A stretch of DNA of 64,000 nt. It comes from Diphasiastrum complanatum. Its lineage: Eukaryota; Streptophyta; Lycopodiopsida; Lycopodiales; Lycopodiaceae. This document shows, piece by piece, positions 12,800 to 59,689 of this stretch; position 1 is the stretch's first letter; each line of letters begins with the position of its first letter. Both the position numbers and the translations under genes were made by a program. Location: NCBI GenBank assembly GCA_029204225.1, contig CM055095.1, forward strand, positions 70,287,574-70,351,573, in the 5' to 3' direction. The notes below the pieces were generated by a model that searched no databases, was not told where the DNA came from, and saw nothing but the letters and a program-made list of their open reading frames with translations.

Positions 12800-13907
<1,108 letters not shown>

Positions 13908-14149
13908 CATGGGAGAGAGCCGCGCCTACTTGCTACCACAGTCACGATCCACACCCATTCCTCACGATAGTCGTGATCCACACCCCTTCCTCGCGATCAA
14001 GATAGAGAGAGAGAGAGACCATCCTGATCACACCCATTCCTCGCGACTCGTGATTCAGAGAGACCCGCTATGATACATGGACTAAGGAGGAGCATGGATG
14101 GAGGAAGGAGGGTAATTTGAATTTTGAATTTGGAGTGAGTTGTGGGCCC

Positions 14150-17099: not shown

Positions 17100-19656
17100 T
17101 AGGCCACAGGGTCCCGTTCAAAGAGCTGTTGGTGCCACTCTAGTTGTGGTTGAAGGGCGGGTAGTGCTTGAGCTCAATGCCTTTTATTGTCTCGGCCGAA
17201 AATGAGATTTGCCAACCGTCTCTTGATGACTCGTGTGAATACTTGGCTAGAAATCGTTGATTTTCTCCTCTACAGACTTTGGGTGTCTGAAGGCCTGGCT
17301 GGCAGATATGGTGTGCGAGCCTCTTGATGAGGAGGCTTGTCCTTCCTCATGGCTATGGCTGGAAACGGCGTATGTGCCTTGGTCCCGTGTCACAGCCCCC
17401 ATATCAGCTGGTCCTTGATCTTGGCCTTCTGATTCCTGATCCTGACTCATCACCCCTGCTGCCTGCTGGCCTTGGTCTTGGCTAGTGCTTGCCTGTGCAG
17501 CATCAAAAACAGGTGGCATTGGAATCACCACTGGGGTTGGTTGGGTCTTCTTCTCCATATATACTCCTGGCAAGCCTTGAGGGCTTGTTTAGCCTGGGCG
17601 AGCTCGTGAGTTGCGCTTGCCCGGTACTTGTCGAACTCCGCCTGGTAGCTATTCAAGGTTTGGCTGTACACCTGTACCTGACGCTTGAAGAGATTCATCT
17701 CTGCTTGAGAGAGCGGCCTTGAGTCTGATGTGGGTTGAGCTAGCCAGACAAGCTTTTCGCTTCCTAATGCTTTCACTTCTGCCCTCAGGCGCTTCATAGA
17801 TTTGTAGTTGCGCCTGGAGGGGAGCAAGCCATTGGGATGCTTCAGACTGAAGCTCCCGCACCTTCATGGAGGCATCTGTCAGTGCTTTGGAGAGGCTCTG
17901 AATATATTGATTTAGGCCATCCTCCTTCTGCTGCAGCCTGGCCATCTCCCAGTGCCCGTCTTGTTCATGTTGTTGAGCTATGAGAAGCTCTTGCTGCAGC
18001 TTCGTGAGTTCTGCTCGCAGCTGGGTGTTGCTTGTTGCCAAGTAAAGTACCTGGTTGTCCAATGTGGCCCACGCTGTTACCGCCTCTTGGATGTATGTTC
18101 CCAAGGCTTGGTATGCCATCATTAAATTTGTTGGAACAACCGGTACGCTGGTACTGATAGGGGCTTGTGTGGTAGTGGCCCCGATGGCCGGTACAGTGCC
18201 GTCGTCGTTGTCTTTGATAAGGTTCTCAGGGGACCTTCTGTCATCTGGGGCGATGGGATCTGCCGGATCCGATGATGGAATGAATATTGTCTAAACAAAT
18301 GCGTCATCAGGCAATGGTTGGTTTCCCTTGGCAACCTTTGATGGCAAAATGGGTGGTGTGGGAGGAACAGAAGTGGAAACGAGGGTGGGGACAGTTTGTC
18401 CAAACAAGAGAATGGGTGGAACAGAGGGGAACTGGAGTGTAATATGGAGTACGGAAGGCAAAGATGGAGCGGAAATAGTCTGGCATGGCAGTGAGAAGTT
18501 GATGACTTGCATCCACGCCAGAGTGTCCGAAGACAACTGAGAGTCAGAAGGGTTGAACTGGAGAGGGAGAGCGATGGGAATGAGGGTAATGGAGGATACG
18601 ATAGTAATGGAAGGGGTCGTGGAAGATGGAACAAAGAGAGAAGTAGTGTCAACAAAGGAGACGAGAATGGAAGTAGAAGTAGTCGATGTGGGTGGAACAG
18701 AAAGAAGAGGAGTGATAATAGAAATAGGAGGAGAAGTTTGTACAGAAGAGGAAATGGTAGTGGTAGATGGAGTTGTTATTGTTGTGGCGATGGTACGGCG
18801 TCTGGTGGTAGGTGGAGATGAGGAGGAAGGGGCAGTGCCACACATTCTTTTGCTGGTCGTTGTGTCAGTAACTGTAGGTTGGGAGGATGTGGATGCGGCA
18901 GATGGTGGATAGAGGTTAGTGTGCGGCAGAATGGAAGATAGAAGGCAGGAGCAACGAAACCGTGCACTTTTGTCTCAAGAAGTGCGTAGACAAAACTACG
19001 CAATAGGGGGCCTGCTGCGATATGCTCATGGGTGTTGGGTTTGATGGAGATGGTTAGTTCGTGGATGAGGAAGGCATGCGAGTCGTATGGCACAACTGTG
19101 GGGCCAAGGAATTCCAGGAAGGACTCCACTATCTGACTCAGCAGCGTGGATTGGATTTTGTCCTTGCAAAATGTTGAAACAACTAGAAAGTTGTTCAACA
19201 GATGCACAGCCGTCTGTATGACTGGTTCCGTGATAGCCTCTATCAGGTAACCGTTGTTAGTTTGGATCGGAATCTCTAGTGCATTCTGGATGATGAAAGA
19301 TTTGATCAGGGCTTTTGCCTGACGATGGGAGATGGGCTGACGGTCACCGAACATAATGTCGATGGTGACCATTGAATCCACGTTAATCTGTACCTTGTAC
19401 ATGGTACCCTGGTACAGGAAGTGGAAACGCGCTTTCGGCGCTTCTCAGGTGGCATAAGCGTGAAGGGCGAGGCCCATGTTAATGTCAAAATTGAAAAGCG
19501 CCGAGTAAAACCCATTGCTTCAAGAAGTGGGCTAGCAGTATGAAGCCATGGTTGAATCAGGATATTAGAAGGCAAGGGCCAAATCTGGGTGGCTGAGGGT
19601 ATTTCGCGCTGGATCACCTATTTGGTGCCAGAGTCTTCAGAAGATGAAGAGGACAT
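17100..19656 (-). pseudogene. ORF3 of gypsy element, copy 2
   Basis: The start at 19656 gives MSSSSSEDSG, aligning with MSSTDTSQSP of copy 3. Next come REIPSATQIWPLPSN, then NNGYLIEAITEPVIQTA and a helical block (LETKVHGFVAPAFYLPF, about 18950). A Ser/Thr/Pro-rich linker covers 18900-18290. A coiled coil follows at 18120-17530 (QLRAELTKLQQELLIAQQHE), then a Gln/Asp/Ser-rich stretch and a C-terminal block (FRHPKSVEEKINDF, then SHESSRDGW) ending near 17100. It lies downstream of pol copy 2 on the same strand. Frameshifts near 19440, 18800, 17815 and 17245 show it is decayed. No transmembrane segment is visible. Function unknown. Confidence 0.75.
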
Positions 19657-22806: not shown

Positions 22807-24003
22807 TTAATTCTTTGGAGAGGTGCTAAAAGAGGATCATGATATATTATCATGGATATTCTCAAGGACATCTTATCCTAAGATCATCAAGGACCATATG
22901 GATGGAGGACTTCTCAATGTTCCAGGAGTTGGAGACTTCAATGTTGAATGGCACTTAGCAGGTGGTTTGAAAACATTGAAATGTATGTATAATGTCTCTC
23001 ACAGTGCTACATCAAAACACCCTTGTTTGTACTGCATGAAAATGGCAAAAGATGTAACTAGGAGTACATGAATTACTAGAGAATATGCAGATCCAAATTG
23101 GAAGCCTGTGCTGCCTATCCCCTTAAAAAATGTGCATGTTTGCACTCTTCATGCAGAAGTTAGATTAATAGAAAAGATCATTTATCTTCATATAGTTTTT
23201 GCATGGAATACTAAGCCAGCATCATTAGCAAAGGAAGCTATCTCTCGATTAGAAGATGTTTAATCAAAAGCAGGACTCCATAAAGGACATGTTAAAATTC
23301 AAAAAGATGAAAAGCTTTCAGGAAAGAATGGGAACATGCCAACTAAGTCAAGCATAGGAGGAACAAAAGCATGTTGTTTCCTATCAAATCATACTGGTAA
23401 GGCTTCTAATATTCAACACTCAGTCTGGACAGATATTATTGTTGCCACTTAGGACTTCGAGAAAGGCGGCAAAACTAGAGTACTAAAAGTTGATGTATGG
23501 AAAAAGCTTGATAGTATGATTGCTATTTTAAGAAGAGAAAAATATTCTGATATTGATAAGAAACTTGTCCAAAGGACTTGTGTCGAGTTTGTTAATGCAG
23601 TATCAAAAGCATGGGAAAAAGATCACATCACTCATTACATGGTTAGTATAAAATTTTCAAAATGCTTTCAAATTTTCATATATATTTAGATCCAAACATA
23701 AGACTAACATTATGATTTTGACATATGCAACACATACTAAGAGATCATACAACATTTTTTGCAAATACATATGGAAGCTTGAGTGTATGGTCATCACAAG
23801 GGATGGAGAAGTCACACTGGCAAGCACGAGCAACATTTCATCGAAATACACAACATGGAGGAACCAATGAAAAACGGAACTACATTTGTCAATTGTTTCA
23901 GTGGTTCTACCACAGAGTTCATATTCGACATATAACAAAGTCCACACAATACAACAAGTTTAGAAAACCATGCAAGTTCATACAAGAAGAGAAAGTTAGA
24001 TGA
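22807..24003 (+). pseudogene. Decayed transposase-like ORF, unrecognised family
   Basis: One protein is readable across several frames: LKEDHDILSWIFSRTSYPK, VPGVGDFNVEWHLAGGLKTL, a zinc-ligand-like HPCLYC (about 23035), VDVWKKLDSMIAILRREKYS, then, after about 85 bp without coding sense (23642-23727), HILRDHTTFFANTYGSLSVW, SQGMEKSHWQARA and QHGGTNEKRN. The pattern of a short acidic block, a CxxC pair and a late S-Q-G-x-E-K motif resembles uncharacterised transposase-like proteins that I cannot assign. The interruption may be an intron beginning GTTAGT, but no good acceptor is seen. TAG/TGA/TAA stops near 23070, 23260 and 23450 make it a pseudogene. Confidence 0.5.
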
Positions 24004-25104
24004 TTGCTGAGTAGAAGATCATCATTGTCATCAAATCATGACATGTTCAGAATTGCTTTGCAAATTCATTGAACAAGAAAGGAGAAATACTCAATGTAAA
24101 TGTATTGATTGTATTATACCAAAACACAAAGTGTCAACTATTCATCATCAGATCTTGTGTCAGATTCTATGGCAGTATTGTCATGAAGAAATTCTCTGCT
24201 AGCGTATGCATCTAATAGATGTGCATTATCCTTATTTCCAATAATAAGTGAAATACAATGAATAATGGGAGCTCCTTAAAGGAACATTCCCATCAGTAAA
24301 GCCTAAAATGTTCAAAACATAAGATCTTTTGACAAAAATGTTCTTATTTGCCTTTACAAATTTATGTCCTCCTAGGTAAAATGATAAAGCTTTAACTGCC
24401 ATTATAAGACTCTCCTCGACTGGGCTCAGCTTGGAATGAGCAATACAGATCTCATTCTTCAGGAAATGCCTAAGATAGTGGCCAAGTCCACTATCTCTCT
24501 GGAACGAGGATGCGTGTTGTCTGAAACCACCTCGTCTCGCAGCAAAACCATCTATTATGAGAGCATCCTGCAATAGGAAATATGTTAGCAATAAAACATT
24601 CAGTGATTAAAAATATTCTAATACATTCAGTGATTAAAAGCATTTTAATACATTCAGTGATTAAAAACATAATAATGCAAGGAAGTTTAAACACTTACAC
24701 ATTCTTCATCATCAGCAGCAACCAGATCAGGATGATCAATATAATGACCACGTACTGCACTTTATCAGTGAAATGCAATAATGATGGACGAGGGAAGCCA
24801 TCTGGGATTGAAATGTCATGAATACTTCATCAGATGGTCTGCTTCGCCCATCCTAAGCTATATTTGCTAAAGTCTTAATCAGTCATTCTTCACCAGTCAT
24901 AAGTCCCTCCTCATCATCAAAATCAATACCAACAACAAGTCATCTGTTTCAAAATCTACGAAGTCGGAGAATTCGGAAATTGTGCCGGATAATAAACATA
25001 GAACCTTGCCTTCACGATAGTCAAAAAATTTACATAAATCAGCAGTAGTAAAATATATGACACACTTATATCATATCCATCTAATTACTTTTATTTTCTC
25101 ACGT
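24004..25104. other. Unassigned stretch
   Basis: A 119-codon minus-strand frame (24591-24232; GLGHYLRHFLKNEICIAHSK) may be a relic of an element, but I do not recognise it. At 24594-24675 a 29-33-bp phrase, ATTCAGTGATTAAAAA, occurs three times in tandem. Nothing else supported. Confidence 0.35.
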
Positions 25105-30063: not shown

Positions 30064-31361
30064 GTAAATTATATGTACGCCATTACCCACATTGCTATGT
30101 CCTTGTATTTCTGTTTAACCATTATTTTCTTCTTCGGATTCCCTTCATAAATGCATCGATCTGCACACGCATTCATACAGCTGTCTTATTGTCCTAGTCT
30201 ACTCACCAATGCTTTCTTTTTCGCACTTCCAACGCTTTATCTCCTGCCAACTTCCCGACTCCCCAGTGCCCACAGAAGCAGAGGTCGCTTCTGCGCAGTA
30301 CCGTTGCTTTTTTGCTTGCTGGTTGCTGCCATTTTTCTTATAGGCTATACAGGCTACAGCTCTCTACTCTCTACCCTCTTCTACGGTTTCTCTACCTATC
30401 GGTTGGTTGGTTTGAGGTTTTTTTTCACCTGGGTTTCAGTCTTGCACTCTTGCATAGTTTAAAACTTTCTGCATTTTATTTTTCTTATAGGCTTCTGCTC
30501 TAGCCTCTCTCTCTATCGGTTGGTTGATGGGTTTTATTGTTTATTCACCCTAGTTTCTTTCGGTCTTGCATAGTTTCTGCATCCCATTTAATGCTGCGTG
30601 GACGAGTTTCTGCAACTGCAGGTCTTTGCAAAATTTTGTGGCTTTGAAGTGGGTTACTATTCTATGACAGAAGAAAACGCTTCAAGTTTTGAGCTGGCCT
30701 TGGGCTTGCAAGGGATGTCTATCTGGTTGGTATTCCGAGTTTGATTGAGGCGCCTGCAACGTTAATGCAAAAGCTGGAGCAGAACATTCTGAAGTAGTCC
30801 GTTTCTGCAAACAGAAGACTTGCAGGTGCGGTTTCCACTTCAATGATATCCTACCTTTTCTGCCCACCATTCCTTGTAGTAATGATTTGAAAACGAAGTC
30901 CAAACCTCTCTGCATTGAGCTTTTGGCACAGTTTCCAGCTCTAACCACACTTTGAAATGATTAATCGGGACTCATTCTACATTTCTGCGCCTCAGTTATC
31001 CTTGTTCTGTGTTAAGCTGTCTGTTTTGCAGAGAACACAAGGTTTACATTTTATAACAAACAACATTGCCATCACAGTTTTCGTCTCTCTGTGTTTTTTA
31101 ACATTTCTTGTTGATGTGTAGAATCAATCTCTTGTCATTAAACATTCCTCCTTGAGCTTTTTTGGGAGGATCACATGTGATGAAAAAAATTCTCTCACCG
31201 TGCTCATCGTTTCTCTAAGTATTTCTTTACATGTGTTATTGATGTGTAAAATCACTGCTTGTAGGACAATATATAAGCTTGACTTGTTCCTTGCTTTCGT
31301 GATATGGCCAGTTTGTTTCCTTGCATAGGGTGTCGGGGCCCTAGGATGCTGCATTCTTGCC

Positions 31362-32864
31362 ATGGCTTCATTTCAGAAACATCCAAGCTTTGGCGACTTG
31401 GTGCAGAAGTTCTCGCAAGCTTACATGCTGCGGCCTGGTGGGGTCAAAGGATTCGATGCAGGGATACCTGCAGAGTTTCGCGTGATCATGAACGGAGTTC
31501 CTTTGGATGCTAAGAACGAGAAGCATGCTCCACATAAAGACCTCAAAGATGAAGGTGAAGAACTCTTTCATGAGGCTGAATCAGATCCACTGGAAGAATC
31601 AGAGAAGCTTTCTCAGAAATTGCACATTCTCGAGTGTCTGGTGAATGATACCTTTGCCACTATTTCCGCGTTGAAATCTGCCTACATCAAGCTACAAGCA
31701 GCACACTCGCCTTACGATCCGGAAAGGCTTCGGGTAGCCGATAAGGCTATCATCTCAGAGCTGAGAAGACTTTCCGAACTGAAGCATTCGTTCCGGGAGA
31801 AACAGGCTTTTTCGAATTCAACGTTAAACCATGGCAAGTATCCGAAGTCCAGTCCTGAAGATGGAGAAGAAGATATGGTGAAGAAATTTCAGGAGCTAGA
31901 GAACACCTTTTTGCAAAAGCAGAAAATGCTTAGCAAATATGAAGGTTACATTGAAACCTACAAGAGGCGGATGGAAGAGAAGAATGCTGAAATCGAAAAC
32001 TTGAAAGCTTCTCTTGAAAAAGTAACAGCGAAGAAAGATCAGCTTGAGAGCCGTGTCAGAAAGCTAGAGCATCAATCTGCATTGGATCAAACTTCAACCG
32101 GTTTATCCTCAGAACAATCTGCAAAGCCGTCGCTTTTTGAGCTCGTTGTTGAAGAAGCAAAGGAGGCCGCATCTAATTTTGCTAAACTGCTGACCGCCAT
32201 GATGAAGTCTGCCCATTGGGATCTCGATGCTGCTGCCAAGTCGATCGAGCCTGGGGTATTTTACTCCCGACCAGCCCACAAGAAGTACGCCTTTGAGTCC
32301 TACATCTGCCATCGCATGTTCAGTGGCTTTGAGAATGAAAATTTTTACATGAATGGTAGTTTGTCTTCTATACTTGACCCGGAAAAGCACAGGCACGAGT
32401 GTCTGATCCAGTTTCAAGATATGAGATCTATTGACCCCTTAGAGTTGGTGAGCATCACCCCTGATTGTCTCTTTGGCAAGTTCTGCCACAAAAAATACCT
32501 GCAAATTGTGCACGAGAAGATGGAGGAATCCTTCTTTGGGGATTTTGAGCACAGGGGTCAAATTTTAAATGGCGTTCATCCGCGTAGTAGGTTTTATCAA
32601 AGCTTCTTAAAATTTGCAAAAGCTGTCTGGTTGGTCCACAAGTTAGCCTTCTCTTTCTCTCCTACAGTGAAAATCTTCCAGGTAAGAAAAGATTGTGAAT
32701 TTCATCCATTATACATGGAAAGCGTGGTAGACAATGAAGATCTAGAATACAATGATCCATCTGTTAGACCAACAGTGGCATTGACTGTTACACCTGGCTT
32801 TCGGATCGAGGAAGAAGTTTTGAAATGTCGAGTATATCTGCAGGAAATGCTCCCAGGCGAGTAA
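31362..32864 (+). CDS. DUF641 / GIL1-IRKI family protein, intact
   Basis: A single 500-codon exon without lesions. Residues 1-20 form a conserved amphipathic start. About 80-150 is the DUF641 core (LHILECLVNDTFATISALKS, PYDPERLRVADKAIISELRR). About 165-245 is a coiled coil (FQELENTFLQKQKMLSKYEG). About 260-495 is the C-terminal domain (FAKLLTAMMKSAHWDLDAAA, KYAFESYICHRMFSGF, VTPGFRIEEEVLKCRVYL). Arabidopsis relatives are GRAVITROPIC IN THE LIGHT 1 and IRK-interacting protein, in light/phytochrome-dependent gravitropism and receptor-kinase signalling; whether this copy does the same is inference. Length is in the usual range. The ATG at 31362 is preceded by an out-of-frame ATG at 31346 whose frame overlaps the CDS start to 31513. 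It is the only clearly functional protein gene in the window. Confidence 0.93.
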   Translation: MASFQKHPSFGDLVQKFSQAYMLRPGGVKGFDAGIPAEFRVIMNGVPLDAKNEKHAPHKDLKDEGEELFHEAESDPLEESEKLSQKLHILECLVNDTFATISALKSAYIKLQAAHSPYDPERLRVADKAIISELRRLSELKHSFREKQAFSNSTLNHGKYPKSSPEDGEEDMVKKFQELENTFLQKQKMLSKYEGYIETYKRRMEEKNAEIENLKASLEKVTAKKDQLESRVRKLEHQSALDQTSTGLSSEQSAKPSLFELVVEEAKEAASNFAKLLTAMMKSAHWDLDAAAKSIEPGVFYSRPAHKKYAFESYICHRMFSGFENENFYMNGSLSSILDPEKHRHECLIQFQDMRSIDPLELVSITPDCLFGKFCHKKYLQIVHEKMEESFFGDFEHRGQILNGVHPRSRFYQSFLKFAKAVWLVHKLAFSFSPTVKIFQVRKDCEFHPLYMESVVDNEDLEYNDPSVRPTVALTVTPGFRIEEEVLKCRVYLQEMLPGE

Positions 32865-42720: not shown

Positions 42721-45529
42721 TTATGCGGCAGGAAACAACGGTGGAGTTGTCCATGAGGTGAAGCGGGATTTCCAAGAGCCTCCCATCATAGCCGCACGAA
42801 AATACAGTCGAGCAATCGGCAGCTGATCTTTGATTTGCTCTGAGGCCATCGGCTTATTTGGATCGAATGCCAAGGTAGGAAGGCAATCGTCCCATTTGGT
42901 TGCCACTGACGCCAACAAAGTTAGATCTTTTGCAAACATTGTCGATTGTCACATCGTTGGATCCGGAAAGTGGACATACTCTCTCTGATATGCTTGTAAG
43001 GCCCGGTGGAAGTCCACTGAAATATTCCAGCTGTAAGCCTGGTGGATGATTGGCCAATTGGGCATATGGATGATGATTTTATCCATAGCCAATCCCAAAT
43101 CTTTCCATTTTTGTCTTCGCGGCATTGGCACGTAATAAGGATCTACCCGCAACTGGCGAGGGCTGGCGTAACTCCTAATTGATTCCGGAGTTTTCTCAAA
43201 AACTGTGATTCTCCATGTCGGCTGCTTTCCCAGTGCAGGTATTTTGTCCAATTCTTTGCTGGCCTTGATCTCGGAGGTCTTAAATTTGAGAACCCATCCA
43301 CCACGCGAGGACTCATGTGGATGCTGCTTTAAGAAGGTCTGGATTTGGTCCTCGACGTTGATGGGTCTTCTGAATAAATGACTTGTCCTTGATGAGGATG
43401 GACCTGCTTGTACTGCCGGTATAGCTGGCAGTTGATCTGCTAGATCTAGAGCTCCCCCCTGGTCCATGCTCGAATCAACCCCTATATCCATCTGTACAGA
43501 TTCTTGGCGCGAAGGGGAGAGTTGCGGCTTGACCGGGACGAGGATTTGTGGTTCGGCTTCCAACACTTGAGCGGCGGCTTTTTCGTAGGCGTTGATGGTC
43601 TCTTTTGCCTTTGCCAATTCGGTTGAATCTGCTCCTTTGAACCTATCAAAGCGGCCTTGGAATCCCTGAAGGGCCACTTTGTATGTTTCCACTTTCTTGA
43701 ACAAATATGCAATCTCCGTCGGTGTGACCTGATGATCGGGTATTTGTGTTTGCAGATATGCATCATGCTCAAGGGTGGTCGCATCCAATTCACCTTGAAG
43801 CCGTGTGCGATCTTGTTCGGCCATTTGTAATTGCCCCTTTAGTAGCTGCACCTGTTGCTTGGCATCTTGCACTGCCTTATCTACCTGATCCTATGCGGTT
43901 GTCATGGCGTTTTGCAGGGATCAGCTGATGTAGGTTTCCAAGCGATCAGCTTGTTGTTGGGCCAATTTCCACTTTCAGCCTTTTCTTCATGTTGCTTGGC
44001 TATCTTCACCTCTCGATCCAGCTGGACAATTTTCTGGCTGATCAGAGTATTTTCGGATCCTAAATCAGAGATCCTCTGTTCCATTTCCTTCTTCTTATCC
44101 AGCATAGACTGGATCACTTGCCCAAGGCTTGAAACTAACCCGAGAGCATCACCAGAATTGACAGTCGTGGAGGTGGCAGCAGCAGGAGACCCTGATGGTA
44201 CTATCGTTGGTAGGCATAGAATAGGTGCCAAGGTCTCTTCTTCTTCAAAAATATCCTCGTCTTCAAACCCTTTAGGCACCTTGGCGTCGAACTGCTTTGG
44301 TGACTTTAGAGCTTTGTCAACCCGAAGTGTGGCTGAGCTACCCTGTGTGGGTGGTTGCTGATTGGCATCTTCGACACCAACAGTAGCTTCCTGGATATGC
44401 CCGAATCCTCTTCCAGGGGATTGGGGTTCAAAGGGCGTTGGGGGCTCTGGGGCATTTCAAAGATTTCGGTGGCCCCAAGGGGGTCGAAATCATCGAACAT
44501 ATCCATGAAGAACTGTGTGCTGGGTGAGGTTGCTTCGGTGTGCGGGGGTGAGGCGGCTTGGGCAGCCGTGATGGGAATGGTAGGCCCAATGGTCACAGAC
44601 TGTCCTTGTATGGGAGCAAAGGCGAGGGGAATGGAAAGTTCAGTGCGAACAGCAGCAGGGGGTGGAAGCGCAGCTGATGAGGTATGTCTAGTACGTCGTC
44701 GTGACGCGGAAGGTGAGTTAGGAATTACGATCTCGCTGCATGGACGACGACGACTATGAGAACTTGAGGCCTGGTGAGATGACTCGGCCGGTGCTTCTTC
44801 GTAAACCGAAAGCACAAAATCCAGGTGAAAGCCATGGATTCTGTTTTCTAAGTGAGAAGCGGCTAAGATGGACAATAGAGAGCCACCGGCGAACTGCTGC
44901 TTTGTATTGGCCTTAATAGCTCGCTTGAGCTCACCAGAAACAGTCTTGAACCAGTTATATGGTTCAAGAGGGGCTTTGGCCAACTTTATGTGGGACTCCA
45001 CTATCCTGTGAAGTATTTGAGATGTGATGCGGTCTTTCCTGAGGTTGCCAACCATCAGGAAATGATTCAACAACTGGGCAGCGGCGTGGATGGAAGGGTC
45101 AGTGATGGCTTCCAGAAGGTAGCCATCATTAGTCCAGTGCAGATCGTTGGTGAGATCAATGTATGGCTTGATGGCTTGTTTGGTGTGCTTGTGATTGGGT
45201 GAGGCTTGCGTACCGGATGAGATTCCTATAGCTGCAAGTGCGGCCTCAGTGATGAGCACCTTGTGTGTGGCTCCTTGGAAGGTGATATAAAACTTGGATT
45301 TCTCTTCCTTCCACGTACTGAAGGCAAGAGTGATGAAATCCATATTGATGCATCCCAAAAAGGCTCTCTCATGAATACCCATTGCAGTAAGTAGAGGCTC
45401 TGCAAGGGTCATCCACTGAGTGACCATGCTTGTGCTAGGAAGAATCATGATGTCCGTTGCAGATGGGACATCACGATGGATAGTATAGCGCGGAGACTGG
45501 GAAGTATCAGTAGACGACATGATGATCAT
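42721..45529 (-). pseudogene. ORF3 of the complete gypsy element, copy 3
   Basis: The best-preserved family member, about 900 codons with few lesions. Candidate starts are 45529 (MIIMSSTD) or 45520 (MSSTDTSQSP), the latter matching copy 2. Blocks: HRDVPSATDIMILPSTSMVT; WTNDGYLLEAITDPSIHAAA (about 45130); ASHLENRIHGFHLDFVLSVY; a Ser/Pro/Thr-rich linker (44770-44330); a coiled coil (about 44150-43620, QQVQLLKGQLQMAEQDRTRL); FRRPINVEDQIQTFLKQHPH with ESSRGGW (about 43350); and a C-terminal region with WRITVFEKTPESIRSYASP and MDKIIIHMPNWPIIHQAYSW. Frameshifts are near 44330, 43895 and 42945. No signal peptide or membrane span is apparent, so a true envelope is unlikely. Function unknown. Confidence 0.8.
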
Positions 45530-45739
45530 AAAGGAATTATAACCGCGTGAGAGTGTATCAAAAGGCAATGCATGAAATTTGGAAGGTTTTGGTCGCAAGA
45601 AAAATTCGCAAGAGCTTCGCTAGCACAAGTGAGGAATGAATCGAATTCAGCCAACTTATAGGTGAATTTGGTGGGTCCATTACACTGAATAGTAGTTGGG
45701 CTGATCAGTTCTGAACAAAAATTTGTAGGCATATACAAT

Positions 45740-53476: not shown

Positions 53477-55239
53477 ATGGTGGCTAGGGTCAAGTCTACA
53501 GCTTGTGCCAGAACATATGTACATCCATTCCTTGCTCGTTTTCCTCTTGGAACCGGTCAACGATGTGGCAGAAAGTAGGTCTGGCTGAGGGAGTTCAAGA
53601 GACTTTAGAGGTCAATCGAGTTTAGAGGCCGATCTGTGAGGAATGTCACGATGTCACTCGGCCATCATGTTAGATTCACCGTTACAGCCATGCAGACCTT
53701 GCAAGGTGCTGCATAAGACTATTTGTCCCAGTTTTTTGAGGATTCCATTCTCCTGCTCGTGCATGGTATGCATGTTACCATCATGACCAAGGATTTTGTA
53801 ATTTTCAAAAGACTTCAGGAGCATTATTCCAATCTCCATCTGGATAACACCAGCACCTCCAGAGATCTGCCTCTAGATAGAAAAGACCTCCCAACCACCT
53901 CTGGCAAGAAGAGGAAGCAGCCTCGTCCTACAAAATTTGGATCTTGCAGGCCAACTGCTTTTCTTTCTCCAAAAGTCATCCCTGCAAAGCGGCCTCGCAT
54001 CATCCTAACCACTAGTTCAATGTCTTTGGACTCTGAATCATACTCAAGATCAGCTTCTCCTCCTCCTGTTACTCATCAACCTCCTCAGAAGGTTTCTTCC
54101 CCAAAGGTCAAGCTACCCCAAGAGGAGCTTGATAAGATAACAAAGAAATTTATGACGAATATGAGTCCTACTTAACCAATAAGATTGATATGCTTGGCAA
54201 TTATTTGACTTTTTTATTATTCAGTTGTTGAAGCCACAGACAGAATTATTTGTAGCACAATATCAATCTCGATTCCAAAGGAGACATTTTTGCTGTTAGT
54301 CCTTTCTTCATCGTTGTAGTGAAGGCAAAAGAGGCCAATTTTGATACGGCTTTGCATTTTATGGAGTGCAGTCCAGTGGCCAAAATTTATTTGATTCATT
54401 ATGAAAATAAGTAAGTCTTTCTAATTAAGTTTTGATGGCTTTTATTTTGATGTGTATATTCCTTTCAGCATTGATTCTAACTTTATTTTAAAGGTTATGG
54501 CCGACATTGGAGCCTGAACATTCTTTCAATCAAAATAAATAAAGGAGAAGTATCAAATTTTCTATGTGTAAAAATAAATAGCATTGAGAATACTCATAGA
54601 GAATTTGATTCTCTGCTTCATACATCCATTCGGAAAATACTGACAACGACATCTATTGGCGAAATAAAAATAAAATCTCCCAAGGTATATAATCTTGCTG
54701 ATATGGATCTTTTTTGGTTTTAATTTTTTTATCTTTGAATGAATAAATTATTTATTATAATTTTAATGGTTTTCATTCAACATCTGCAGTTTGTACAACA
54801 GAACAATTCTTTTAGTTGTGCTTGGTTCGTGTTTTATAATAGAAAGTTGTGTTTTGAGTGGTACAACTAACAAGTGGATATTGCTATTGACAAGGTCATA
54901 TTTTGTTCATTTGTTGTTTTTTTTCATCCTAATTTCTATTTCTTTAGTATCGTTATTAGTAAATTGCTCATCCATCTTGTTGGTAATGATAGTTCACTCG
55001 TGACCCATACAATCTTGACGAAGTGTATAGATTGCGGCAAGAGTTGATACAGATTTTGGTTTCAAATAGTAAAATTTTTGTTCGAGAAATTGAGGGCACC
55101 AAAGGTGTGAAAAAGAAATATGTTGTTGCCTTAACAACTTGCTCAGGATGCAAACGTTATAATATACGATCAACATGACATAGAAATGATTCCTAATAAA
55201 GAGGAAGGAGAAATAACAGGACAAGAAATTGTAGTATAG
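53477..55239 (+). pseudogene. Histone H3-like multi-exon gene, + copy
   Basis: From the ATG at 53477 the frame gives an H3-like tail start (MVARVKSTACART), a VWLREF segment corresponding to VALREI of H3, and the histone fold (RFTVTAMQTLQGAA, YLSQFFEDSILLLVHG, VTIMTKDFVIFKRL). A basic Ser/Pro-rich linker runs to about 54172. Further exons inferred by comparison with the inverted copy: about 54225-54410 (SPFFIVVVKAKEANFD, donor GTAAGT), 54501-54684 (acceptor mutated to GG), 54790-54894 (acceptor CATCTGCAG) and 54993-55239. In-frame TAG stops at 53576 and 53606, TAA at 53714, loss of the LLIPRAPF segment and a late frameshift indicate a pseudogene. The C-terminal region is unrecognised. A possible last exon ends at 55449. 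Confidence 0.7.
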
Positions 55240-55449
55240 ATTTTACTCCTGATGATGTTCTGAAATCCAAAATTTTGGCCTTCCAATACGATCGCTTTTT
55301 CGAAATGTTTTTTTTTTTATGATGGATGCATCAAGTGTTTTTTGAATATTTTCATCGCACCCATAATCCATTGTCATCTTCCTCATTAAAGAGAAACATA
55401 GAGTCGATTGAGGAGCACGACGTCTTTGATCTCGCCAGTCGTTATGTGT

Positions 55450-57149
55450 AGAAAGCTATGAGTTAATTCTACTTAATCTTGTAAACCATGATTTGACAAT
55501 GCATTTACATTAAAGCTACATCGATTTTCTCATTTTAAGCTTCTGTCATATTCATTTTCAATCTATAACATTGATATATTTAAAAAGTTTTCATCTTATT
55601 TGTGTTTAAGAAAAGCTACATTACGTAGACTGATATAAAGCTTTCTATTTGTATCTTTTTCATAAAAAAATAAAATGAGAAAAACAGGGCATCTTTTTCA
55701 AAGGCCCTCGTTGGGCTCTATTTTTTTCTAATGTAAAAGTGGTTTTGAACTTTTTGCCAACAACAGTTTGCGAGCTCCCCCTATAGTTAGTACAAAGATG
55801 AATAATTTAAATTTTACAACACTGGATCTACTTTTCTTGCGGATGGCAGACCTAGAATACCTTGTCACTATTACAAAAGAAGACGTGCTACTAGAAAATC
55901 AAAATCCATAGGAATCTTATTTGAATGAGAAATGTCTCAGAAACTTGGATTTGAAATCCACAACAGTGAATCTGACTGAAGAGCAACAGAATGAGGATTG
56001 TGATGGAATCTTGGCTTTAAACTCAACAATAGCGAACCTATCGGAAGAGCACTCACAATGGTGATAAAACAAATCTTTCAAATCTACAGACAACCATTAG
56101 ACAACAACAAAACATACCTACTCTGTTGTATGAGCACAAAAGAGCTGGCTAATCATTCTTTGGGATATGAAAGAGATAGGTGGATTCATATTGAACAGGA
56201 CCTACGAACAATGGATAAACTTACCACAAGCTATGACACAAGAAGGACCTCTTGCCAAAATGATACAAGGAGAAGGTTTAATAGCTATTTCAAGAGAACA
56301 AACTTCACAAATTGGACCGTAGTCATGCAGGGAAATTTCAGCTTCCTCGACCCCTAGAGATTATAAGCCTTGACAATACTGGGAAATCTTAAAAGAGAAT
56401 TCAGTTCTCAGCTCTTTAGTGAGTCCTCTCACATAAATGGGATAGAATCAACTTAGCAAAGTTTTAACTCACAGCTCTCTTGAAGCTTTGGCAAGAACTA
56501 AGGGAAGGACAGAGCACATGGGACATTAAAGAAACTTAGAGCCCAAAAAGGGCCTTTGAAAAAGATGCTTTTTTATTTTTTTTTCCTTGGTAAATGGGTG
56601 CCACTCAATCAAGACTTGGAAGCCAGTGGACATTCAAAACGAAAAAATATTTACATTATATACAATGATGTCATTTTTATGTGTGTTGAGGTGGAAGAAG
56701 ATTGGAGTCTAAATTACATCAGGCGGAAACTATTGCTTCTACAAGATGATGTACTTTCAGACTTCAGATTCATTTTCAATGGTAAACTCGTAATTGTAAA
56801 CACTTGATCTTTTATGAATAGTTTCAACCAAAACTTTCTAATACAAATTCTGTACTAATGGTAACTCACTTTGTATTAGTTCTATGCAGGTACGTAAAAG
56901 ACGTGATGCAGAGATATTGGCGAAACAATTCAACTTATGGAAGAACATTGAGATTCACTGTCAGCAAATACATGCCAATCATCATGTCTTTTTATCAATA
57001 TAGAAAATTGTATTCCAGTATTACACTATGGACACAACCTGATTGTAAGAATCTCTATTGATATCAATAAAAAAAAACCATAAACGGGTTGTTTACATGT
57101 AAAATGATTGTATCTTTTTTTTTTTATGTATCTTTATTTACAAATAGAT
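55450..57149. other. Spacer between the inverted H3-like genes, with unrecognised coding-like pieces
   Basis: Coding-like pieces on the + strand: a heptad-rich stretch at about 55840-56130 (NLTEEQQNEDCDGILALNST), GPLAKMIQGEGLIAISREQT at about 56250-56310, VEEDWSLNYIRRKLLLLQDD with FIFNGK at 56690-56790 (it has the feel of a ubiquitin-like fold, low confidence) and, after a possible acceptor CTATGCAG ending 56888, RKRRDAEILAKQFNLWKN. Stops separate them. They could be later exons of the + copy, an independent gene or a decayed element. Confidence 0.35.
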
Positions 57150-59130
57150 CTCTATTCAGTCAATTTTTCTATATTTCTTTATCAGTATTAGGAACTAAGG
57201 GAACAGCTCCTTTTATAATCTCGCCTTCCTCTATTTCGAGAAGGGACTCAATGTCTTTTAAGGCAAGAAGACTCTCTGCTATAATATCGTCTTCCTCCCG
57301 TATTAGGAAGGACTTCTATTCCTTTTTTATCATATATAATAAGATCTGCATCCTGAGCAACCTAAAAAGCTATTAAGGCATGAGCAGCTTGCTTTTGAGT
57401 GCCCTCGATCTTAGGTGCAATGCTTACACCATTCTGGGCATAGATTCTGATCTACTCTTGCCGAAATCTATATATGTTGTCAGGAGCATATGGCTCAAGA
57501 GTGAACTGTCATCACAAAACACGAGAATCAGCAAATTACAAACAATGATGGTAAAGAAATATGAATAGAATAATACCTTTTCAATATCTACATCCACTTG
57601 TAAATTTTACCACTCAAAAAATAGCTTCGTATTGTACAGGACGAACCATGTACAACTAAAAGCGTTCTTTTGTTGTACACACTACATATATAGAACGCGA
57701 ATTAGTAATATTATGATAGAAAATTTATTTATGCTATGATGATAGATTTGAACTAAAAATGGAATACATGCATATCAGAGATAAATTGAATATACCTTGA
57801 GAGATCTAATGGTTATCTCTCCAATTAAGGTTGTCGTAGTCGATATTTCCCGAACAGCATCATGAAGTAGAGAATCAAATTCTCTATGTGTATTTGCAGC
57901 TGAGTTTAATTTTACACATAGAAAATTTGATACTCCCTCCTTATTTATCTTTACAGAAAGAATGTTCAAGCTCCAATGCCGACTGCAATAACCAAAATAT
58001 GAATATCGATAAATCCATACTTATTTTCATATGGAATTAAATAAAATTTTGCCACAGGACTGTATTCGATAGAATATACAGCTTTCTCAAAATTGGCTTG
58101 TTTTGCCTTTATCGCTCCCATGAAAAATGGACTAACAACAAAACCTATACCATGGGAATCGGAACTAATACTATTCCGCAAAAAAAATCCTCCGACTTCT
58201 ACTATTACTTTTAAAATTTCTGAAGTTTTATCTTTCAGTTCGGCACAAAATTGGGACCTAATCTAAAGCTTTTACATGAATCTGGAAGAAAAAAAATCAA
58301 AAAAATTGCCAAGAAGATCAATTTTATTAGCTAGATAAGCCTCGTACTGGTTATAATGGTCAGAATTAAAATAAACTTGGGCAGGATCGTATGGAATTCT
58401 TACAAAAGATTATGTACAAGAGCAAAAAAAGAAGAAGATACAATATTTATAGATTTCTCTATTATTTTGTCGAGCTCCTCTTGGGTAATCAACACTTTTG
58501 GTGAAGAAACCTGCTGAGGAGCTGGACGAATAACAAGAGGAGAAAGGGGTAAAGATTCTCGATCTGAATCAGATTCTCCAACATCTGACTCGGAGCTCAG
58601 AACGATTCGGGGTCTCTTGGCCGAGATAACTCTAGGAGGAAGGGAAGCAGCTGGCTTTCGAGATCCAGCCTTCTTGGAGACAGACTCCTCTTCCTCTTAG
58701 AGGTAGTCGACAAGTTGGTTCTATCCAGAGGCAGGTCTCTGGAGGTGCTGGCATTATCAACATGCAGACCAGCAAGTCTTTTGAGAATGACGAAATCTTT
58801 TGGCATGATGGTGACACGCTTACCATGCACTGTCAAAAGACAGGTATCCTCAAAAATCTGGGACAGAAAATCTTTTGCAGCACCTTGTAAGGCCTGCATG
58901 GCTGTCACGACAAAACAAACATCTAGCCCAAGTGATAGAGTGACATTCCTTACAGATCGGCTGAAAGGAGCTCTAGGGATCAACAGTTCAGTTGATCTCT
59001 AACGTTTTCTAATCTCCCTCAGCCAGACCTACTTCCTGCCATGTCTACGACCAATACCAGGGGGAACGTGGGAATGGGATGGCTGTACAATGGTTATGGC
59101 ATGGGTAGTGGATTTGATCTTGGCCATCAT
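57150..59130 (-). pseudogene. Histone H3-like multi-exon gene, - copy
   Basis: The start at 59130 gives MMAKIKSTTHAIT, then VWLREIRK, STELLIPRAPFSRSVRNV and the histone fold (VVTAMQALQGAAKDFLSQIF, TVHGKRVTIMPKDFVILKRL). All three fold helices are readable without gaps, closely following H3. LIPRAPF and KDF look CENH3-like, but loop 1 has canonical length. After a basic linker, exons are inferred at about 58021-58265 (ELKDKTSEILKVIVEVGGFF, SPFFMGAIKAKQANFEKAVY), 57796-57982 (HWSLNILSVKINKEGVSNFL), 57577-57681 (QQKNAFSCTWFVLYN) and about 57190-57505 (AQDADLIIYDKKGIEVLPN). Introns begin GT and end AG; one is only 38 bp. In-frame TAGs at 59029-59031 and 58999-59001, shared with the + copy, plus later TAGs, suggest a pseudogene. 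Confidence 0.72.
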
Positions 59131-59435
59131 CTGAGAAGAAAAAAATTAACAAAAAAAAGTTTGAATAAAAGCACACAGAATGAAAACAAAAAAAATTCGA
59201 TAAGGGGGTGCTTGAGATCGATACCAGAACTTAATATCGGTTTCGAACGCAAGATGTACATAGAATATTTTAAGAAATGAGATGCACACTCAAAAGCGAT
59301 ATTGGACTAACAACGATATCGATCTCGAGAGCACTATGAGAAGGCGGACGATTAAACGGTGAGAGGGCACGCTTGAGAGCGATATTGGGAGCAAAAACAA
59401 AAAAATCTATGAAAAAAATGAAAATTTTGAGGACT

Positions 59436-59446
59436 TATATATACGA
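59436..59446 (-). promoter_or_regulatory. Candidate TATA box of the - strand H3-like gene
   Basis: Minus strand TATATATAAG about 310 bp before the ATG at 59130. Between them GAGCGATATTGG-like phrases recur (about 59301, 59330 and 59375 on the + strand). Position fits a promoter; not otherwise tested. Confidence 0.4.
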
Positions 59447-59689
59447 AATTTTTGCACGTATGAAAAGACGGTCGAAGAACAAAAGAAAAACAAGCAGAAG
59501 ATGAAAGAGAGTTACTAGATCCAGAGGGAGGTCAAGATCGAATACCTGACAGACTCAAATCGCCAGCTCAAATTTCAGCAAAAAAGCTCGAATCAGAATT
59601 GAACTCAAAACCTGCAGAATCAAACTTGAAACCACCCGTGAGAAGATCAGACAAACAATGAAAACCAACAGAAATGTATGGTCAGGATG

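Follow-up and report, generated by a model that had tools for sequence, protein, structure and literature searches.

Some transposons are known to carry histone H3 and others a Ulp1 domain, in separate organism groups. In the fungi Pseudocercospora fijiensis and Pyrenophora tritici-repentis, hAT transposons captured histone H3, and P. fijiensis contains 784 H3-like copies; in the sections of that paper on these elements, the H3 stands alone and is near host H3, and its carrier, a DNA transposon measuring about 9.5 kb, has inverted repeats, a hAT transposase and 8-bp duplications and amplified H3 to high copy (PMC6710886). Among plants, VANDAL elements, which are MULEs without terminal inverted repeats (TIRs), captured Ulp1 domains (KIU) and induce hypomethylation of related copies; the passages of a review that treat them give the function of the Ulp1 part as unknown (PMC13317346). 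Here we analyzed a stretch of 64,000 nucleotides from Diphasiastrum complanatum (Lycopodiaceae; GenBank assembly GCA_029204225.1, contig CM055095.1, positions 70,287,574 to 70,351,573 of the forward strand), hereafter the window, in which two histone-containing arms lie inverted to each other at about 53.4-59.5 kb. We find it well supported that a TIR DNA transposon family with several genes encodes, in one protein, an H3-like histone, a linker that is basic and then acidic and serine-rich, and a Ulp1/SENP-like protease.

The D. complanatum element resembles the fungal hAT-H3 elements in being a DNA transposon with inverted repeats and a highly amplified H3. Unlike them, it has an H3 that is diverged and joined to a protease, it contains introns and no transposase recognized by Pfam, and no duplication was seen at three of its insertion sites. 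With the KIU-carrying VANDAL elements it shares a Ulp1-domain gene that stands beside other genes in a plant DNA transposon, and it differs from them in its inverted-repeat ends, in the lack of a MULE match among the open reading frames (ORFs) tested, and in its histone, a component that the review's passages on KIU do not mention (PMC13317346). Our full-text searches of open-licence papers recognized neither a histone-Ulp1 fusion nor a histone-carrying plant transposon, so that the joined form was not found there, which is no proof of novelty.

The N-terminal part of the protein is an H3-like histone. On the minus strand of the window this part (58768-59130) has a complete fold and matched Pfam Histone with an expectation value (E) of 6.1e-23. 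The plus-strand counterpart (53477-53815) lacks six codons around LLIPRAPF and also matched above the cut-off (E 1.1e-7), as did a relative from the same genome, L009; the complete fold that the original prediction saw in both arms is therefore present in the minus copy and not in the plus copy. Against PDB sequences the minus copy scored 77.9 bits with H3.3 (E 6e-21) and 77.2 bits with CENP-A. The ARTK-type tail start, the aN segment, the full fold and KRVTIMPKD are all shared with H3 and CENH3, whereas the tail is shorter and no stop follows the last helix. Compared with provisional reference sequences, the core was 47-49% identical to plant H3 and 40-44% identical to Arabidopsis CENH3, and loop 1 aligned to plant H3 without a gap and was two residues shorter than that of Arabidopsis CENH3. 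The earlier observation that loop 1 lacks CENH3-type lengthening was thus correct on these provisional sequences. Its hint of CENH3, taken from LIPRAPF and KDF, was not sustained: loop 1 has H3 length, identity to CENH3 does not exceed that to H3, and the copies are scattered over the genome (see below). An AlphaFold model of the window's 133-aa histone ORF, made with no alignment, was uninformative (mean predicted local distance difference test score 36.3).

In both window copies the histone is followed by a basic linker and by the later blocks in the same order, with SPFF, HWSLNILS.KINK, FSC.WFV.YN and AQDA..IIYD recurring in identical order as originally described; read-through models of the two copies, in which stops were written X, were 60% identical over 505 columns. 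To place these copies among their relatives, we searched the same genome (1,744,706,496 bases in 5176 contigs) with the window's histone ORF. The search returned 7133 first-look candidates, and all 150 that were scored matched with an E of 4.6e-48 or better. Twenty loci of 10 kb, picked for long open frames or high score, were then fetched. Histone and first protease half were found in order on one strand at 19 of them, and the next protease exon as well at 18; L020 was without the protease, and L023 without the later exons. Because L009 and L015 share their flanks, they count as one insertion seen twice.

Three of the twenty loci (L009, L010 and L011) hold a single open frame that begins at the histone start, crosses the linker and reaches YENK within the protease half, which means that no splicing is needed for this part. 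The search for intact copies that had been suggested thus yielded an unbroken histone-linker-protease-half frame, and the frame does run on past the last histone helix as predicted. The several further exons that had been proposed to follow the histone need revision in one respect: histone and first half of the later module form one exon in these three relatives, and it is the remaining borders that carry GT or AG, at 75 of 82 scorable border dinucleotides. The prediction that an H3 fold is fused to another module accordingly stands, on the single frame in three loci, the conserved order in 19 and 18 loci, and the protein-level constraint in the window pair described below. The histone-protease unit is almost certainly a fused gene of a mobile element. 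The refuting outcome named with the prediction, that the later exons come from an unrelated element, was right in that these exons lie in a mobile element and wrong in that the histone belongs to it too.

The linker occupies 53816-54142 in the plus copy, where it is basic and serine-rich, and 58430-58767 in the minus copy, where it contains AKRPRIVLSSESD and one frame change. Its motif KRPx[VI]x[LM] was present at 18 of the 20 fetched loci, followed by SSES in 17 and by ISES in L022; the motif scan gave none in L014 and picked another KRP in L017, whose frame nonetheless holds DKRPRVFLSSESN. We take KRP/KRKR to be a putative nuclear signal and VFLSSESD to be a putative SUMO-interacting motif.

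The C-terminal module, unrecognized in the original prediction, was matched by Pfam Peptidase_C48 (Ulp1). With exons joined, the score was 23.3 bits in the minus copy (E 6.6e-5) and 14.9 bits in the plus copy (E 0.023), against a cut-off of 20.7 bits, which L015 also passed with 21.8 bits. Read-through sequences from eight genome loci and both window copies were compared with this family, and eight of the ten matched at an E of up to 1, the best at 6.1e-5. A profile of the ten found SENP8 as its only PDB match, in an alignment where HWSL, Gln and Cys line up; a profile built from just the window pair had no PDB match for the protease, and an NCBIfam search returned nothing relevant for it. His-Trp, Gln and Cys are conserved among the copies, and FDSLL is nearly invariant. 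The Pfam match, HWSL, a Gln six residues ahead of the Cys, and FSC.WFVLYN liken the module to Ulp1/SENP cysteine proteases, whose usual motif is DCG. It departs from them in having SC[AT] in place of DCG, a longer stretch between the His and the candidate Asp, and a histone at the N-terminus. Taken together, these features suggest that the later module is very probably a Peptidase_C48 domain of the Ulp1/SENP-like cysteine protease type.

In the plus copy the first half of this C48-like domain lies at 54148-54411 and has an internal deletion; it is followed by the exon with HWSL (54499-54684, GT-AG borders), the exon with QQNNSFSCAWFVFYN (54790-54894) and the C-terminal exon or exons with AQDANVIIYD (54993-55218). 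The corresponding parts of the minus copy are the first half at 58020-58406, the HWSL exon at 57796-57981 (with a GT donor), the exon with QQKNAFSCTWFVLYN at 57577-57681 and the C-terminal exon with AQDADLIIY at 57332-57505.

We then compared the copies beyond the histone-protease gene. They share sequence far past it, and their flanks differ. Full copies are 8.5-10.6 kb long and have CATTAG...CTAATG inverted ends: 9920 bp in L009, 10,580 bp in L015 (the L009 site), 9054 bp in L030+L019 and 8521 bp in L016. Terminal inverted repeats are present at both element ends. Ten of the 20 loci had GGCCCTCGTCGGGCTCTAAGTTTCTCTAATG, or a close variant of it, as their 3' end. Eight loci were examined with upstream sequence, and six of these (L009, L015, L023, L028, L016 and L030+L019) had the 5' end CATTAGAGAAAATATGGGCCC, which was not found in L011 and L018. 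About 15 bases from the tip, each inverted end has a GGGCCC-type hairpin; in L030+L019, for example, 0 of 200 and 2 of 200 shuffles folded as well.

The element contains at least three genes: gene 1 on the plus strand, gene 2 on the minus strand, and the histone-protease gene. For genes 1 and 2, the pieces searched had no convincing Pfam match, BLYB and coiled-coil hits being below the cut-off, and a PDB search for gene 2 gave nothing. In our judgement, which is not a database match, gene 1 looks transposase-like (LKLDESEIIKG, HITHYMHILRHH, SSQGMEKSH); it may resemble the KDZ (Kyakuja-Dileera-Zisupton) transposase, to which Pfam gave no match. Neither a hAT nor a MULE match was found in the subset of element ORFs tested against Pfam. 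We did not adopt a hAT assignment, given this result and the lack of a duplication in three copies; the labels Polinton, Helitron, MULE and KDZ were likewise considered and not adopted. In L012 and L019, a stretch of about 600 bp that is single in other copies is tandemly duplicated, at about -1500 to -320 from the ATG; it is perhaps the promoter region.

The inverted arms of the window were confirmed at 53477-55218 (+) and 59130-57332 (-), and a tblastn search at an E of up to 1 found no third copy of the gene there. The 3'-end pattern matched the window twice, against 0.01 matches expected, and each arm retains an end of its own: the 3' terminal inverted repeats lie at 55697-55733 (+) and 56524-56560 (-), so that the elements end at 55733 and 56524. 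The first transposon copy (53477-55733, +) is cut at the ATG on its 5' side, its matches to the fetched relatives starting at 53477 and its blocks reaching 55733-55736; the second (56524-59478, -) has lost its 5' side at about 59478. Because each arm has its own element end, we ruled out a single palindromic gene pair, and the two separate 3' ends indicate two insertions. The arms of the predicted inverted gene pair are therefore real; the single structure is not, and the reading that they are two 5'-truncated, decayed transposon copies placed tail to tail is well supported. Over the main blocks, identity to the relatives was about 84-86% for the minus copy and about 70% for the plus copy.

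Each read-through model contains five in-frame stops, at residues 34, 44, 405, 433 and 463 in the minus model and at residues 34, 44, 86, 271 and 407 in the plus model, and frame changes are present as well. With five stops per model, both window copies are pseudogenes. Their ratio of nonsynonymous to synonymous change (dN/dS) was nevertheless 0.316 (bootstrap 0.24-0.42), with 0.37 for the tail, 0.25 for the H3 fold, 0.47 for the linker, 0.20 for C48 and 0.40 for the C-terminal part. Shifted frames of the same alignment gave 0.87 and 1.18, so base composition alone does not explain the signal. Selection for protein sequence acted while the window copies diverged. Among younger copies (L015, L024, L019 and L020 dropped, 18 sequences in all), in-frame dN/dS was 0.38 for the tail, 0.42 for H3 and 0.43 for the N-terminal half of C48, versus 0.55-1.04 in shifted frames. 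We read this as a gene that was selected in its source copies and decays after insertion, with modest support from the younger copies.

Two of the stops, the TAG codons at residues 34 and 44, are common to both window copies (53576-53609 on the plus strand and 59031-58999 on the minus strand). At both places all 18 other aligned copies have a sense codon, which argues against recoding or an ancestral stop; this alignment left out L019 and L020, and L015 is the same site as L009. An aligned set of 18 sequences contained 18 in-frame stops, ten of them at places where the commonest codon was CAG. Four of these ten are the window's shared TAGs, which leaves 6 of 14 as independent support. Independent CAG-to-TAG decay is a plausible origin of the shared stops, and gene conversion between the window copies is a possibility.

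How might such a protein serve the element? A Ulp1-like domain joined to a histone fold reads most simply as a protease that is bound to chromatin and acts on SUMO or a related tag. The histone part may pair with H4 or bind a histone chaperone and so bring the protein to chromatin, and the linker may direct it into the nucleus and perhaps contact SUMO (KRPRVFLSSESD). The protease would then take SUMO or a related tag off silencing proteins at the element's own copies, and its removal would keep these copies expressed and mobile. The domains and their order, the single frame in three copies, the conserved introns, the high copy number and past selection on the protein are shown by the data; enzyme activity, substrate, nucleosome entry and anti-silencing are what we infer here from sequence. 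We put the probability of the overall explanation, a fusion gene of a transposon whose product is a chromatin-tethered SUMO protease acting against silencing, at about 0.6. The anti-silencing role taken by itself is a tentative proposal, with the odds somewhat against it. It is doubtful that the H3-Ulp1 protein would be built into the chromatin of element copies and strip SUMO there, as a protease-armed nucleosome, with a transposase outside the family library searched. Several observations weigh against our explanation. The plus copy stays under the C48 cut-off, the SENP8 match is weak (E 0.55), and the invariant Asp of FDSLL does not align to the SENP8 Asp. In the younger copies, H3 and the N-terminal half of C48 are only modestly lower in frame than shifted, and there is no constraint on the linker (0.64 versus 0.55 and 0.94 in shifted frames) or on exon 2 (0.72 versus 0.65 and 0.61). 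The 20 fetched loci are not a random sample, and no target-site duplication was visible at three independent sites (L009, L030+L019 and L016).

The same lack of constraint on linker and exon 2 would be expected if a captured host H3 and a Ulp1-like sequence were passive cargo, copied along without benefit like the H3 of fungal hAT elements. That 17 of the 20 fetched loci are without a single frame also fits, and the fungal case, as far as it is described in PMC6710886, is a precedent. But the older window pair was constrained over histone, linker and protease where shifted frames were not, and catalytic-type motifs and splice sites were retained, and we consider passive cargo an unlikely explanation. 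Slightly less probable is a targeting or transposition factor, with the histone steering the transposition complex to one kind of chromatin and the protease processing or deSUMOylating the transposase. The gene does sit beside other conserved genes of the same element, but the scored copies were scattered: in a map of top-scoring copies, which bears no centromere marks, 22 of the contigs C1-C23 carried 130 of the 150 and other contigs the remaining 20, with one cluster of 13 at C20:17.2-20.8 Mb. The GT-AG introns and gene-like structure would suit a host gene family, in which a duplicated H3 variant with a protease domain merely lies near repeats; this is already largely refuted and very improbable, since homology reaches the shared inverted-repeat ends far beyond the gene, the flanks differ, and the first-look candidates number in the thousands. 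An endogenous virus or virus-like element using a histone and an adenain-like protease is hardly credible. Large DNA viruses could be expected to combine a histone, a C48-like protease and inverted repeats, but when 2.9 million viral contigs were scanned by pattern, none of the 32 stretches found was a relative, the subset of element ORFs tested had no viral Pfam match, and introns are present. The same kind of scan found no relative in prokaryote genome contigs (158 stretches).

Elsewhere in the window, 22811-24606 holds what is left of a related but diverged element. Gene 1 (on the plus strand) and gene 2 (on the minus strand) have kept their relative order in it, with about 64-67% and 45% amino-acid identity, respectively, and tblastn found no histone-protease gene with it in the window. 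A 511-aa ORF at 31329-32864 (+) resembles a host gene of the GIL1/DUF641 type. The ORFs at 18776-19444 (-) and 44306-45619 (-) are alike by eye (AITEP/AITDP...LLNNFL/LLNHFL), and a long purine simple repeat at 13430-14005 is open in several frames on both strands.

Overall, our analysis supports a transposon family with a histone-protease fusion through which the element could act on its own silencing chromatin. With so many copies, the capture can be dated and selection measured over a long series. Joining the chromatin building block to a SUMO-type protease, such a protein would permit a direct test of whether silencing is fought within the nucleosome, and would give histone-tethered enzymes a precedent in nature. 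If true, the protease-armed nucleosome would mean that a mobile element has turned a histone fusion into a weapon against silencing.

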